DNA of 36,017 nucleotides from Deltaproteobacteria bacterium (GTDB lineage: Bacteria > Desulfobacterota > Syntrophobacteria > BM002): positions 2,358,685-2,394,701 of the forward strand of contig CP070735.1 in the NCBI GenBank assembly GCA_020347625.1. The letters run 5' to 3'. This document shows, piece by piece, positions 4,442-16,173 of this stretch. The notes under the pieces are model-generated. The model was not told the origin of the DNA, searched no databases, and was given only the letters and a program-made list of their open reading frames with translations. Both the position numbers and the translations under genes were made by a program. The stretch's first letter is position 1, and each line of letters opens with the position of its first letter.

Positions 4442-5329
4442 CTACCCTCCGGTGAGACGTTCCAGAGCTTCCAGGTAGCGGGTCTTGGTATCGCGCACCA
4501 CCTCTTCGGGCAGCTCAGGCGCCGGCGGTCTGTGATCCCAGCCGCACCGATCCAAGTAGTCACGCAGATACTGTTTGTCAAAACTCTCCTGGCTGCCACC
4601 GGGCAGATATTTGTCCGCCGGCCAGAATCGTGACGAATCTGGAGTGAGTACCTCATCAATAAGAGTCAACTTACCAGCGACCAGGCCGAACTCAAACTTG
4701 GTATCGGCAATGAGAATCCCACGTTGCCTGGCCATGGCGGCCCCTTTCTCATAGAGGGCCAAGCTGAGATCACGTAGCTCTTCTGCCAAATTGGTCCCCA
4801 CCTTGTCACAGAGGGTAGTAAAGTCGATGTTTTCGTCATGGGTGCCCTTTTCAGCCTTTGTCGATGGGGTGAATATTGCAGAGTCTAGGCGAGCCGACTC
4901 CACGAGGCCGTCTTCAAGCAATATGCCGCAAACCGAGCCGTGCTTCTGATAATCCCTCCACCCGGATCCACTGAGATAACCACGAACAATACATTCCACC
5001 GGCAGGGGTTCGGCCCTCTTCACCAACATGCTCCTCTGGGCTAATTCTCCAGCATATGGTTGGCATTGCTGCGGAAACTCCTCTACTTCTGTGGTAACTA
5101 GATGATTGTCAACTAAGTCGGCCAGGGCTCTGAACCAGAAAGTGGAGATCTTGGTCAGAATCCTCCCTTTGTCCGGGATCGCCGTCGGCATTACCACATC
5201 GTAGGCAGAGATCCGGTCTGTAGCTACAATAAGCAGGTGCTCTCCCAAATCATATATGTCCCTCACCTTTCCTCGGCCTTGCAAGGTAAGGTTACTGAAG
5301 TTGGTCTCAAATACCGGGGCTGCTGCCAT
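4442..5329 (-). CDS. purC: SAICAR synthetase (phosphoribosylaminoimidazole-succinocarboxamide synthase)
   Basis: PurC joins CAIR and aspartate with ATP to give SAICAR in de novo purine synthesis, in the cytosol. The 295-aa product shows the family landmarks: [12 protein letters not shown] at the N-terminus, [35 protein letters not shown] (ATP and substrate binding), IADTKFEFG and [12 protein letters not shown]. Length suits the longer PurC subgroup. The ATG at 5329 has GGGGGA seven bases upstream. No other purine gene is adjacent; it sits between the biotin carboxyltransferase and the ParB-domain gene. Confidence 0.97.
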
Positions 5330-5444
5330 ACTATTTCCCCCTCGAATCCTCAGAGCGGCTGTGGGATCTGCTGTGGCTTAAGTCAGAAAGGGGCGAACCC
5401 ACAAATTGCCTGAGGTCCACCCCTTCTGTTGCCTTTAGCGAATT

Positions 5445-7430
5445 CTAGCCGATGACTGCCAGCGTATTTCCTTTTTGAACCGAGTCGCCATTCTTGAAAG
5501 GGATAGAAAGCACGGTCCCAGCAGTAGGCGCGGTGATGGAATTTTCCATCTTCATGGCCTCAAGGATGAGCACCACATCTCCCTCATTTACCGAATCACC
5601 TTCTTTAACTTCATAGCGAATAATCATTCCCGGCATGGGCGCTTCGATAGGAGTGCCGCCTTCCACCGCTGGCTTAACTTTGGGCTCAGCCGGTGCAGCC
5701 GCAGGAGTCGGTGCAGGAGCAGCAGGCGCAACCGCAGCAGGAGCAGGCGTTGGCGCAACTGGGGGCGCCATCGGCGTAACCGCTGTAACCACTGGTGCAC
5801 CACCCACCTCGTCCACTTCAACCTCAAAATACTCCTCATCCACAAAAACGTTGAAAGTACGTATTCCTGGACTCTTGTCCGGCGCGACCTTTTCAACCTT
5901 TTCAACCAGTTTACCTGCTCTTGCCAAACCCACCAGTCGATCTTCTTCTTTAACCTTTTCCAGGGTCTTGGGTTTTACTTCGTCCGGCACCTCCTCTTCA
6001 CCGTACTTCCATTTCAAGAAACGAATGCCGGTGGTGGGATAAAGGGCAACGATTAGCTCATCATCGATGTCTTTGGCCAGTCCTTTAGCCAAGGCTTTGG
6101 CCTTATCGAACTCTGGTTCCAACACATCCGCCGGCCTGGTCTTTATGGGCTTTTCTCCACGAGCGTACCCCTTCAGTGCCTTTTTCTGAACCTCGGGGTC
6201 GACGGGCACAGGGGTTTCGCCGTACAGCCCATAACAGAGATCCTTAACTTGGGCGGTGATCATCTTATAGCGTTCATCCTCGGTGTCAAACAGGACATTG
6301 TTGACCGTCTGGATCCCAACAATCTGGCTGGTTGGGGTGACCAGGGGCACCTGCCCCAATTCCTGGCGCACCCTTGGCAGCTCAGCAAACACCTCGTCGA
6401 TACGATCCAAGGCGTCCATCTCCCGGAGCTGGTTGACCAGATTCGAAAGCATGCCACCGGGCGTCTGATGCAGGAGCACATTGATGTCTATAACAGACAT
6501 CTTGGTGTCATCCAGAAGATAACGGTATTTGGGAGAAACTTTCTCCATGTGCTCGGTGAGCATTGCCAGGTGCTTGATATCAAAGCCGGGATCCCGACTG
6601 GTGCCCTTAAGGGCCATTGCCAAGGGCTCCAAGGCTGGATGCGAGGTGCGATAGGCCCAGGGAGACAGGCAGGTATCAACAATGTCTACCCCAGCCTCAA
6701 TTGCCTTGAGCAGTGCCATACACGACTGGCCCGAGGTAAAATGGCTGTGGAGATGCACGGGGGCTTTCACCGACTCTTTCAGGGCCTTGATCAGCATGTA
6801 GGCATCATAGGGTGAAATAAGACCGGCCATGTCCTTGATGCATACCGTGTCTGCACCCATATCTTCGAGCTGTTTAGCTTTCTTGACATAGTATTCGATG
6901 TTGTATACCGGGCCTCCCATCCGCGGTTCGGTCAACGAATAGCAGATGGCCCCCTGAAAGTGTTTGCCCATCTTCTTGATTATTGGCACAACAGTCTCAA
7001 AATTACGCAAATCATTCACTGCGTCGAAAACCCGGAAAACATCTATACCATTAGTGGCTGCACGCTCTACGAATGCCTCGGCCACATCGTCGGCGTAGTT
7101 GCGATACCCCACCAAGTTCTGACCCCTCAGCAACATTTGTAGTGGCGTATTCTTGACATACTTCTTCAATGTCCGCGGCCGTTCCCAAGGATCCTCCCCG
7201 AGAAACCGATGCATGGTATCAAAGGTCGCGCCTCCCCATACCCCCAAGGCCCAGAAGCCAACCTTATCCATCTCCTCCGCTATGGGTATCATGTCCTCTG
7301 TGCGTCCCCTGGTGGCAAAAAGCGATTGATGCCCATCGCGAAAAGTTAAATCCTGGATTTTGACCGGATTAGTCACCTTTACTTTCTCTTCCACCATTCC
7401 GGCCGTCAACTTTCCATGTTTGTCTGGCAT
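5445..7430 (-). CDS. Pyruvate carboxylase subunit B / oxaloacetate decarboxylase alpha-like, biotin-dependent
   Basis: The 661-aa protein has three parts: an HMGL-like carboxyltransferase barrel beginning at RDGHQS (31-36) with a metal-site HLHSHFTSG, a conserved PYC/OadA domain, and, after an Ala/Pro-rich flexible linker (about 548-595), a biotinyl domain with EAMKMEN; the biotin would be on Lys627. It transfers carboxyl groups between biotin and pyruvate/oxaloacetate. No biotin carboxylase subunit or membrane OadB is in the window, so pyruvate carboxylation, oxaloacetate decarboxylation and a transcarboxylase 5S-like role cannot be separated. Start ATG follows AAGGAG with six-base spacing. 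Two small ORFs lie upstream on the same strand. Confidence 0.9.
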   Translation of the reverse strand: MPDKHGKLTAGMVEEKVKVTNPVKIQDLTFRDGHQSLFATRGRTEDMIPIAEEMDKVGFWALGVWGGATFDTMHRFLGEDPWERPRTLKKYVKNTPLQMLLRGQNLVGYRNYADDVAEAFVERAATNGIDVFRVFDAVNDLRNFETVVPIIKKMGKHFQGAICYSLTEPRMGGPVYNIEYYVKKAKQLEDMGADTVCIKDMAGLISPYDAYMLIKALKESVKAPVHLHSHFTSGQSCMALLKAIEAGVDIVDTCLSPWAYRTSHPALEPLAMALKGTSRDPGFDIKHLAMLTEHMEKVSPKYRYLLDDTKMSVIDINVLLHQTPGGMLSNLVNQLREMDALDRIDEVFAELPRVRQELGQVPLVTPTSQIVGIQTVNNVLFDTEDERYKMITAQVKDLCYGLYGETPVPVDPEVQKKALKGYARGEKPIKTRPADVLEPEFDKAKALAKGLAKDIDDELIVALYPTTGIRFLKWKYGEEEVPDEVKPKTLEKVKEEDRLVGLARAGKLVEKVEKVAPDKSPGIRTFNVFVDEEYFEVEVDEVGGAPVVTAVTPMAPPVAPTPAPAAVAPAAPAPTPAAAPAEPKVKPAVEGGTPIEAPMPGMIIRYEVKEGDSVNEGDVVLILEAMKMENSITAPTAGTVLSIPFKNGDSVQKGNTLAVIG

Positions 7431-8637: not shown

Positions 8638-9246
8638 TTAACCGGCCATAGCTACTCGGCGGGTCCTTTTCTTCAGCCGGCTAATCCGACGCCTGAGAAT
8701 CTGAACCTTGTCTTTTTCCCCTGCTTCCCTCATGGCCTCTTGCTGGTTGCGCAGCTCTTTTATTTTCCGCTTGATGGAACGAATATCACTATCGGTCCGT
8801 CGCACTTTCTTGTCTACAATCCCTTTGACTTTCTTGATGGCCGCAATCAGCTCGCTCTTATTCATAGCATGAACCCCGACGATACCTTCGAGGGTCAGTG
8901 CCATCTCCCGCAGCTCTTTGGCTGTCATCCGGTCCAAGGGCTTTTCTTTTTTTTCTTTTGGTTCTTTTTCCTTTTTGGGTTCCTTTTCCGCTTTAGCCTC
9001 TTTAGGCTCTTTTTCCGCTTTGGGTTCCTTTTCCGCTTTTGGCTCTTTTAACTTTTTTTCCTTTTTTGGTTCCTTTTCCGCTTGAGGCTCTTTAGGCTCT
9101 TTTTCCTTTTTGGGTTCCTTTTCCGCTTTAGGCTCTTTTAACTTTTTTTCCTTTTTGGGTTCCTTCGCCGCTTGAGGCTCTTTAGGCTCTTTTCCCGCTT
9201 TTGGTTCTTTTACCTCTTTTGGCTGCTTTTTCTCCTTTTCCGTCAT
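8638..9246 (-). CDS. Lys/Glu/Pro-repeat protein with a Rho_N-like domain
   Basis: The 202-aa protein has an extremely charged, proline-spaced N-terminal half (residues 1-103) made of a 30-aa unit based on KEPKEPQAEKEPKKEKKLKE, present about 2.8 times. Residues 104-140 (LDRMTAKELREMALTLEGI...MNKSELIAAIKK) match the helix-extended-helix Rho_N/SAP-like fold that binds nucleic acid. The last 60 residues are a basic coiled coil (IRSIKRKIKELRNQQE...RRRISRLKKRTRR). Cytosolic, likely RNA- or DNA-binding. The disordered acidic/basic repeat tail probably varies in length between strains. It follows the nfeD-slipin pair by 63 bases. Function is unknown. Confidence 0.8.
   Translation of the reverse strand: MTEKEKKQPKEVKEPKAGKEPKEPQAAKEPKKEKKLKEPKAEKEPKKEKEPKEPQAEKEPKKEKKLKEPKAEKEPKAEKEPKEAKAEKEPKKEKEPKEKKEKPLDRMTAKELREMALTLEGIVGVHAMNKSELIAAIKKVKGIVDKKVRRTDSDIRSIKRKIKELRNQQEAMREAGEKDKVQILRRRISRLKKRTRRVAMAG
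8941..9192 (-). repeat. 90-bp in-frame tandem repeat coding for the KEP-rich tail
   Basis: Three units lie at 9192-9103, 9102-9013 and 9012 to about 8941 (the last incomplete). On the plus strand they look like T/C-rich tracts with repeating GGTTCC, CCGCTT and GGCTCTTT blocks. The period is exactly 30 codons, so copy-number change keeps the reading frame. Confidence 0.8.
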
Positions 9247-14937: not shown

Positions 14938-14944
14938 TAGATAA

Positions 14945-14972
14945 CGCATAGCGCATAGCGCATGGCGCAAAG
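14945..14972. repeat. Four tandem heptamers, CGCATAG type
   Basis: Units are CGCATAG (14945-14951), CGCATAG, CGCATGG and CGCAAAG. They lie just upstream of the nitroreductase promoter. No inverted partner was found next to them, unlike the arrays near 16.0, 30.3 and 35.0 kb. Confidence 0.7.
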
Positions 14973-15167: not shown

Positions 15168-15821
15168 TCATTTCCTAGTGGGCTGCCATCTCAGTGCATT
15201 GATCACCCCGTGGCAACGGCAGGCGGTTGCAATCAGGACGTCTCTTTCTGTGGATCGCATCTCCTCGAGAAGCCGCCAAAGGATCGACAACTGGTAACCG
15301 CCCACCCCGGGTGCCAGTTGGTGGCTGCGAATCACCTGGATTAGATATCCCTCAATCTCGATCCGGCGAAAAACATCAAACAAATTAGCAAGACGAGGCT
15401 CTCCTGTCACCGTACAACAATCTACCGGTTCATCACAGTTGTCAGGACAGCGGAAGGTGGCAATACTTGCATAGAGGACGTTTGCCTCTTCCCTCATAGG
15501 ATTGGGAACTTGATGGTCTACAATAGATGGTACGGGTAGTGGTTTCACCCTACCCTCTCTGCCCAACCGCCGGCAGAGCCAAGCGAAGGCAACGTGGATT
15601 GGAATGGCCGGTACAACCCACTCTGGCCCTTGACCCGAGCGCTCCAAAAGAAAATCAATCGCATCCTGCTCGATTATCTCTACTCCTTTTTCACCTAGTT
15701 CTCTCAGGGACCTGCGATCACGATCTACTATTAGCACTTGAGAATCCTTCTTTAGCTGGAGGATACGTGCGAGCGCAAGAGATCCAAACCGCCCGGCCCC
15801 CAATATCCAAAAAGACTCCAT
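15168..15821 (-). CDS. Rossmann-fold (TrkA-N-like) protein with a cysteine cluster
   Basis: The 217-aa protein opens with a dinucleotide-binding fingerprint (WILGAGRFGSLAL, residues 5-17) and an acidic strand end (VLIVDRD), like TrkA-N domains. The second half has closely spaced Cys residues in FRCPDNCDEPVDCCTVTG and another pair in TACRCHGVINAL, around a conserved-looking QLAPGVGGYQLSILWRLL. The Cys pattern could bind a metal or Fe-S cluster. I know no characterised homologue; a redox or NAD(H)-sensing role is only a guess. The start is ATG with AAGGAG nine bases upstream. It is divergent from tatD. Confidence 0.75.
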   Translation of the reverse strand: MESFWILGAGRFGSLALARILQLKKDSQVLIVDRDRRSLRELGEKGVEIIEQDAIDFLLERSGQGPEWVVPAIPIHVAFAWLCRRLGREGRVKPLPVPSIVDHQVPNPMREEANVLYASIATFRCPDNCDEPVDCCTVTGEPRLANLFDVFRRIEIEGYLIQVIRSHQLAPGVGGYQLSILWRLLEEMRSTERDVLIATACRCHGVINALRWQPTRK

Positions 15822-15993: not shown

Positions 15994-16173
15994 GTCAGCC
16001 TTCAGCTATCAGCGCTCAGCCCTTAGGGAAAAATGGTTTGTAATTTTTTCGCCATTACGCTTCGACAGGTTTCTGAGAAACCTCATTAGTTAGAGATCCC
16101 AATCTCCGGTACTATCTGTACTGATCATGCTGTACGTTCTGTTTTTACTGATAGCTGACTGCTGAATGCTGAC
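15994..16173 (+). repeat. Imperfect 26-bp inverted repeat built of heptamers in the tatD leader
   Basis: The left arm 15994-16019 is made of NTCAGCN heptamers; the right arm is 16148-16173. The reverse complement of the right arm matches the left at 21 of 26 positions. Inside, AGGTTTC-TGA-GAAACCT (16067-16083) forms a perfect small hairpin. In RNA the arms could close a long stem ending about 33 bases before the tatD ATG. Confidence 0.65.

Follow-up and report, generated by a model that had tools for sequence, protein, structure and literature searches.

An uncharacterised protein family of Desulfobacterota that joins a Rossmann-type nucleotide fold to a conserved cysteine site

Which role can be assigned to a small protein that combines a Rossmann-type nucleotide fold with a dense group of cysteines? 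The question is raised by a gene in a stretch of 36,017 nucleotides (the window) from a deltaproteobacterial genome of 3.22 Mb, a single contig that is 87.5% complete. The gene is an open frame of 217 amino acids with an ATG start (15168..15821, stop included). A preliminary description had placed it correctly and left the strand unstated; the open frame lies on the minus strand. Relatives occur in 48 of 59 related genomes, one of them (G043) matching over 25 residues only. The protein had been described as soluble, which agrees with its hydropathy: the mean over 19 residues peaks at 1.22 and stays under the value of about 1.6 that is commonly taken as the limit for membrane segments. We document here the gene, its two-part layout, its conservation and a confidently predicted fold, with a C-terminal half for which no known family was found; the identity of the nucleotide, the metal, the reaction and the substrate we infer. 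The family is sound and uncharacterised and is not a surprise in itself, and the protein looks like a real metal-cluster or redox protein.

The N-terminal half (residues 1 to about 95, boundary approximate, 15537..15821, minus strand) is an ordinary Rossmann half. Pfam TrkA_N (PF02254) matches residues 5-56 with 29.2 bits against a gathering cut-off of 23.8, which bears out the TrkA-N-like start proposed in the preliminary description, as the conserved cysteines of the second half bear out the proposed two-part layout. Among 80 members (Pfam, E up to 1), TrkA_N is matched by 75 and Sacchrp_dh_NADP by 56, while NCBIfam returns weak TrkA and dehydrogenase matches for the protein and its relatives. 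The GxGxxG nucleotide-binding loop (residues 8-13, 15783..15800, minus strand) is strictly conserved: G8, G10 and G13 are invariant in all 80 rows of an alignment of the family and in 33 of 34 more divergent proteins (both sets are described below). NAD(H) binding usually goes with an acidic residue where strand 2 ends; position 33 is indeed D in 73 of the 80 rows and E in the other 7, so that loop and acidic strand end occur together. In the divergent proteins D33 is replaced by E in nine and by A in one, and H76 is replaced in four of the 34. It is known that KTN domains can bind ATP or ADP in place of NAD(H), and KtrA-ATP entries are present among the structural matches of the model.

Comparison with known systems places the likeness in the Rossmann part. 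Structural matches of the whole model to Rossmann proteins reach Z 7-8 over approximately residues 1-80. With the KTN (RCK-N) domains of proteins such as TrkA (4g65, 4j9u) and KtrA, the protein shares the fold of residues 1-80 and the GxGxFG loop (4g65_A: Z 8.2, rmsd 2.1, 74 aligned), but differs from TrkA in that the cysteine half stands in place of the regulatory C-terminal domain, which has no match. The NADP-binding domain of saccharopine dehydrogenase (PF03435; 3ic5_A: Z 7.9, rmsd 2.2, 73 aligned) has a similar Rossmann start; its Pfam score of 18.3 bits is below the cut-off of 25.1, and the C-terminal half is not shared. SirC precorrin-2 dehydrogenase (3dfz: Z 7.0, rmsd 1.9, 66 aligned, residues 1-75) is likewise a small NAD-dependent Rossmann protein, but the match stops before the cysteine half, and no SirC model is among the NCBIfam matches listed. 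Rex-type NADH sensors are of similar size and have a Rossmann nucleotide half together with an N-terminal DNA-binding domain. Unlike Rex, the modelled protein begins at Rossmann strand 1, and Pfam finds no N-terminal winged-helix DNA-binding domain of the Rex type in it. A role as regulator of potassium transport (Trk/Ktr) was rejected: no NCBIfam TrkA equivalog model scores above 13.7 bits, where the cut-offs are 293-386, and the RCK-C domain (TrkA_C) is absent from the six Pfam matches of the protein up to E 10.

The C-terminal half (about residues 96-217, 15171..15536, minus strand) carries the cysteines. The protein contains seven (83, 125, 129, 135, 136, 201 and 203), six of which belong to two groups, CPDNCDEPVDCC (residues 125-136, 15414..15449, minus strand) and C-R-C-H (residues 201-204, 15210..15221, minus strand; CRC at 201-203). 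In a first alignment of 30 rows, C125, C129, C136, C201, C203 and H204 are invariant. The larger alignment of 80 rows consists of the window protein and 79 of the 80 loci retrieved as the best 80 of 155; the remaining locus (L104) is absent because its translation holds an X, and it shows the same cysteine motifs. In this alignment all 80 rows have C125, C129, C136, C203 and H204, and C201 is kept in 78, with serine in the other two (L099 and L103). Four cysteines and one histidine without exception, together with a fifth cysteine in 78 of 80, make up a candidate ligand set as in an iron-sulfur or zinc protein.

We note that one of the two retrieval patterns behind the 80 rows includes C201, C203 and H204 and thus favours these positions. 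Therefore 34 proteins from 33 loci, hand-chosen from the profile matches in genomes of the phylum and mostly low-scoring or long-framed, were checked separately. Three of them are identical to rows of the alignment; the other 31 differ from every row and share 29-41% identity with the window protein. All six site positions are kept in 34 of 34. C83 and C135 are variable, the commonest residues being L (29%) and I (36%), respectively, so the CC doublet is accidental and the conserved site comprises five cysteines, not six. The motifs named in the preliminary description hold six cysteines, of which five are conserved and C135 is not; conservation in homologues had been its proposed check, and on that count the cysteine site withstands the comparison. 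Many polar residues of the C-terminal half are also invariant in the 80 rows, including S166 and Q168, and a PGVGGY segment is found there too. A tandem paralogue (L122:4998-5690) has lost the GxGxxG loop and keeps all six site residues, and the site is therefore under a constraint of its own.

An AlphaFold2 model of the whole protein from the 80-row alignment is confident (pLDDT 93.9, pTM 0.91). The loop that follows strand 115-119 and precedes helix 147-152 contains C125-C136, while C201-C203 lie in the turn that links strand 194-200 to strand 204-214. Residues 97-217 modelled alone also fold with confidence (pLDDT 91.0, pTM 0.84). Because the confident model places four invariant cysteines and an invariant histidine in this loop and this turn, the cysteine half probably binds a cluster or a metal, as the preliminary description had suggested.

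Searches for relatives of this half returned no established family. Against PDB structures the best Foldseek match has E 0.77, which is not significant, a second structural comparison gives at best Z 3.1 (5yo9_B, rmsd 4.9, 95 aligned), and PDB sequences yield no match up to E 10. None of the 25 Pfam families listed for 80 members extends over the C-terminal half in two or more of them, and no NCBIfam model among the matches listed covers it. A search for the half in other proteins of 247 genomes gives 56 strong matches, all within family-bearing genomes (five weak rows with E 0.04-0.07 were disregarded). Two alignments of the whole model were set aside: a ubiquitin-E1-like alignment over residues 1-217 (3h8v, Z 6.8, rmsd 5.4, 111 aligned) is too loose, and 1vh3_A, the sole Foldseek match at E below 0.001, has an rmsd of 14.1. 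In a check for fusions, the eight longest frames (261-533 amino acids, eight loci) show only Rossmann-type families, and three of the eight have no match at all. The cysteine half is thus unnamed in the Pfam and NCBIfam libraries and has no PDB counterpart in the searches made, which is no proof of a new fold. A search of the open-access literature, judged by title, found no paper on the family.

Within one phylum the family is common. In a profile search of 394 genomes of the phylum, 104 match with E of 0.001 or lower. Those with E below 1e-30, 96 in number, are counted as family-bearing; the other eight (E 6e-5 to 9e-4) match the first 68-70 profile positions only, in frames of 407-482 amino acids, and were left out of the count. 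When a collection of 84,980 species was scanned, 155 stretches were confirmed. By title, the best 80 of the 155 are of Desulfobacterota type or Deltaproteobacteria, except for one SAR324 and two 'Proteobacteria' bins, and among these 80 the closest relatives that carry a name, at 66-69% identity, come from bins of Desulfobacteraceae, Deltaproteobacteria, Syntrophobacterales and Desulfobacterota. Named species with a member include Desulfosarcina widdelii (L087) and Desulfatibacillum alkenivorans (L059). In the phylum of the SAR324 bin the family occurs in one of 52 genomes, on a contig of 3034 bases, and this occurrence is possibly a binning error. Plasmid and phage searches gave no family match. 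Genomes of the Desulfobacterota type belong largely to anaerobes.

The gene context is mostly housekeeping and differs by lineage. In the window, the plus-strand genes on the other side of the gene encode TatD, Maf and a YggS-like frame (YggS assigned by eye). Downstream on its own strand follow a nitroreductase-family gene, a frame without an assigned family, coaBC and a family-4 uracil-DNA glycosylase. Among the best 80 of the 155 loci, the commonest neighbours are YggS-like (17 loci), Maf (17 loci) and a DJC28_CD gene (14 loci), all encoded on the other strand and in most cases upstream; since the frame caller retained the family gene in only 67 of the 80, the counts are minimum values. In more distant lineages, where neighbours were named by Pfam for one or two of each type and by eye for the remainder, a polyprenyl synthetase gene upstream and an endonuclease-III-like gene downstream flank the family gene in L111, L112 and L116 (upstream only in L120, downstream only in L114), PrmC is upstream in L113 and L118, and NAGPA is upstream in L115 and L117. 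No constant partner gene is found among the 80 loci or the more distant lineages. An operon partner was rejected, as the commonest neighbours, in at least 17 of 80 loci each, lie on the opposite strand. In one distant lineage (f14, L117) the order of family gene, lipoprotein-like frame, coaBC and uracil-DNA glycosylase is as in the window, which differs by a nitroreductase gene that also intervenes.

A further type of context is found in one lineage (f12), where all seven sampled family-bearing genomes have the gene in corrinoid, methyl-transfer or mutase surroundings. In six of the seven, the gene directly upstream in the same direction is Pterin_bind (L155, L157), URO-D (L158, L160) or Glyoxalase_4 (L156, L159); in the seventh (L161) the URO-D gene is one gene further away. 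The Glyoxalase_4 gene of L156 and L159 belongs to a mutase operon and is the one that we named 'epimerase'. Outside this lineage, a mutase gene lies about 0.5 kb downstream of the family gene in the same direction in G109 (f25). Of the 96 family-bearing genomes among the 394, 95 have PF01642, versus 185 of the 298 others, a comparison uncorrected for ancestry and made with a broad model that matches eight of 14 control genomes, E. coli included. A count by hand finds all 22 family-bearing taxonomic families among the 73 mutase-bearing ones of about 104 (p 1.3e-4). Two further genes are enriched in family-bearing genomes, likewise uncorrected for ancestry: CdhC (87 of 96 versus 182 of 298) and dsrA (75 of 96 versus 121 of 298; the dsrA list comprises 196 genomes at about E below 1e-60, compared with 192 over the official cut-off). 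A dedicated partner gene of sulfate respiration was rejected, since the genome of the window has only a weak dsrA match (2.8e-32) and many dsrA-bearing genomes lack the family. A Wood-Ljungdahl partner was rejected as well: despite the enrichment of CdhC, the genome of the window has none.

In the f12 lineage the family gene adjoins URO-D, B12-binding, Pterin_bind, DUF6125, C_GCAxxG_C_C or mutase-operon genes (L155-L161). At L122 two family copies (4998-5690 and 6438-7085) stand in tandem with a DUF6125 gene between them, and the same genes are found in L161.

The reading that we favour, if only tentatively, is that of a small oxidoreductase linked to NAD(H) and equipped with a single metal site, most likely of the iron-sulfur type. 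It would be a stand-alone soluble protein whose N-terminal half, of TrkA-N/KTN-like Rossmann fold, is the binding site of NAD(H) or of a similar adenine nucleotide. The C-terminal half would carry the metal, most likely a [4Fe-4S] cluster whose ligands are C125, C129, C136 and C203; C201 and H204 would lie next to it. By way of the cluster or of the C201/H204 pair, electrons may pass between the nucleotide and a substrate bound close to S166, Q168 and the PGVGGY segment. If the protein does bind a cluster, it would couple a KTN-like nucleotide fold to a metal domain in an undescribed combination, and spectroscopy and crystallography would gain a small soluble target. In favour of the oxidoreductase are the TrkA_N match above the cut-off, the GxGxxG loop with the acidic residue at position 33, the strictly invariant cysteines and histidine and their place in a loop and a turn, the paralogue that keeps the site without the nucleotide loop, the many invariant polar residues of the C-terminal half, the lack of an output domain among the Pfam families listed, the longest frames with nothing beyond Rossmann-type families, and a distribution nearly confined to genomes of Desulfobacterota type. 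Against it, zinc would leave the same mark in the sequence, KTN domains can bind ATP or ADP instead, D33 and H76 vary among divergent proteins, and no operon partner backs a given reaction. Zinc is accordingly the first rival: the cysteines, or three of them and the histidine, might hold a structural zinc that stabilises the C-terminal half of a Rossmann enzyme, with a chemistry independent of the metal. The four invariant cysteines and the adjacent invariant histidine fit zinc as well as a cluster, but the near-invariant C201 is more than a plain structural zinc needs; this is an argument only, and we regard structural zinc as possible, though rather unlikely. That the cysteines act without any metal, as a dithiol-disulfide relay of C201/C203 and the loop cysteines fed by NAD(H), is suggested by the CxC pair adjoining an invariant histidine. 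The serine in place of C201 in two of 80 rows (L099, L103) would break the pair, and a thiol enzyme appears improbable.

A different role for the same two halves is that of a redox or NADH sensor, in which nucleotide and cysteines jointly report the redox state to a partner. The KTN-type nucleotide-sensing fold and the conserved cysteines are consistent with such a sensor, which we nevertheless consider doubtful. The Pfam families listed for 80 members include no DNA-binding or other output domain, and no neighbour gene is constant; because of both, we lean towards an enzyme where the preliminary description had offered a redox sensor or an undescribed oxidoreductase. The surroundings in the f12 lineage point to yet another role, a helper of methylmalonyl-CoA-mutase-type or corrinoid methyltransferase enzymes that might, for instance, reduce or repair them. 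Its support comes from the arrangement directly upstream in six of seven genomes, the mutase gene downstream in G109 and the distribution of PF01642. Control stretches from the f12 genomes weaken the first point: such genes occur in 5 of 11 (12 places in 201 kb), compared with 7 of 7 family loci (15 places in 84 kb), in a comparison that is biased towards the test, since its queries are proteins of the test loci, and that was made after the arrangement had been sighted. Three CdhC-bearing control stretches were set aside, and all three hold a Pterin_bind match. Across L031-L143 such gene types were found only in L104 and L129 (mutase; one contig, judged by its length), L104 and L128 (meaB-like, 30% identity in L128), L075 (URO-D, 21% identity) and the f12 loci L122 and L133. 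In the window no mutase or corrinoid-type gene is adjacent to the family gene. Since the co-occurrence ignores ancestry, CdhC and dsrA are enriched too and PF01642 is broad, the link of the family to methylmalonyl-CoA-mutase-type and corrinoid genes is a weak lead, and a helper role seems quite improbable. We judge it most improbable that the members are NAD(H)-linked iron-sulfur proteins, with a C-terminal fold of their own, that keep the corrinoid enzymes of Desulfobacterota (methylmalonyl-CoA-type mutases and corrinoid methyltransferases) active and reduced.

Three further features of the window are recorded here. The gap from the family gene to the nitroreductase gene holds a short tandem repeat (14939-14970) with a 7-base GCATAGC-like unit, whose 18-base pattern has three matches versus 0.02 expected. 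The gap before the TatD gene contains an 18-nt inverted repeat (arms 15995-16012 and 16148-16165, 89% complementary, 135 nt apart). At 8638-9246 on the minus strand, a frame of 202 amino acids consists mostly of repeats rich in K, E and P, with a non-repetitive C-terminal third.
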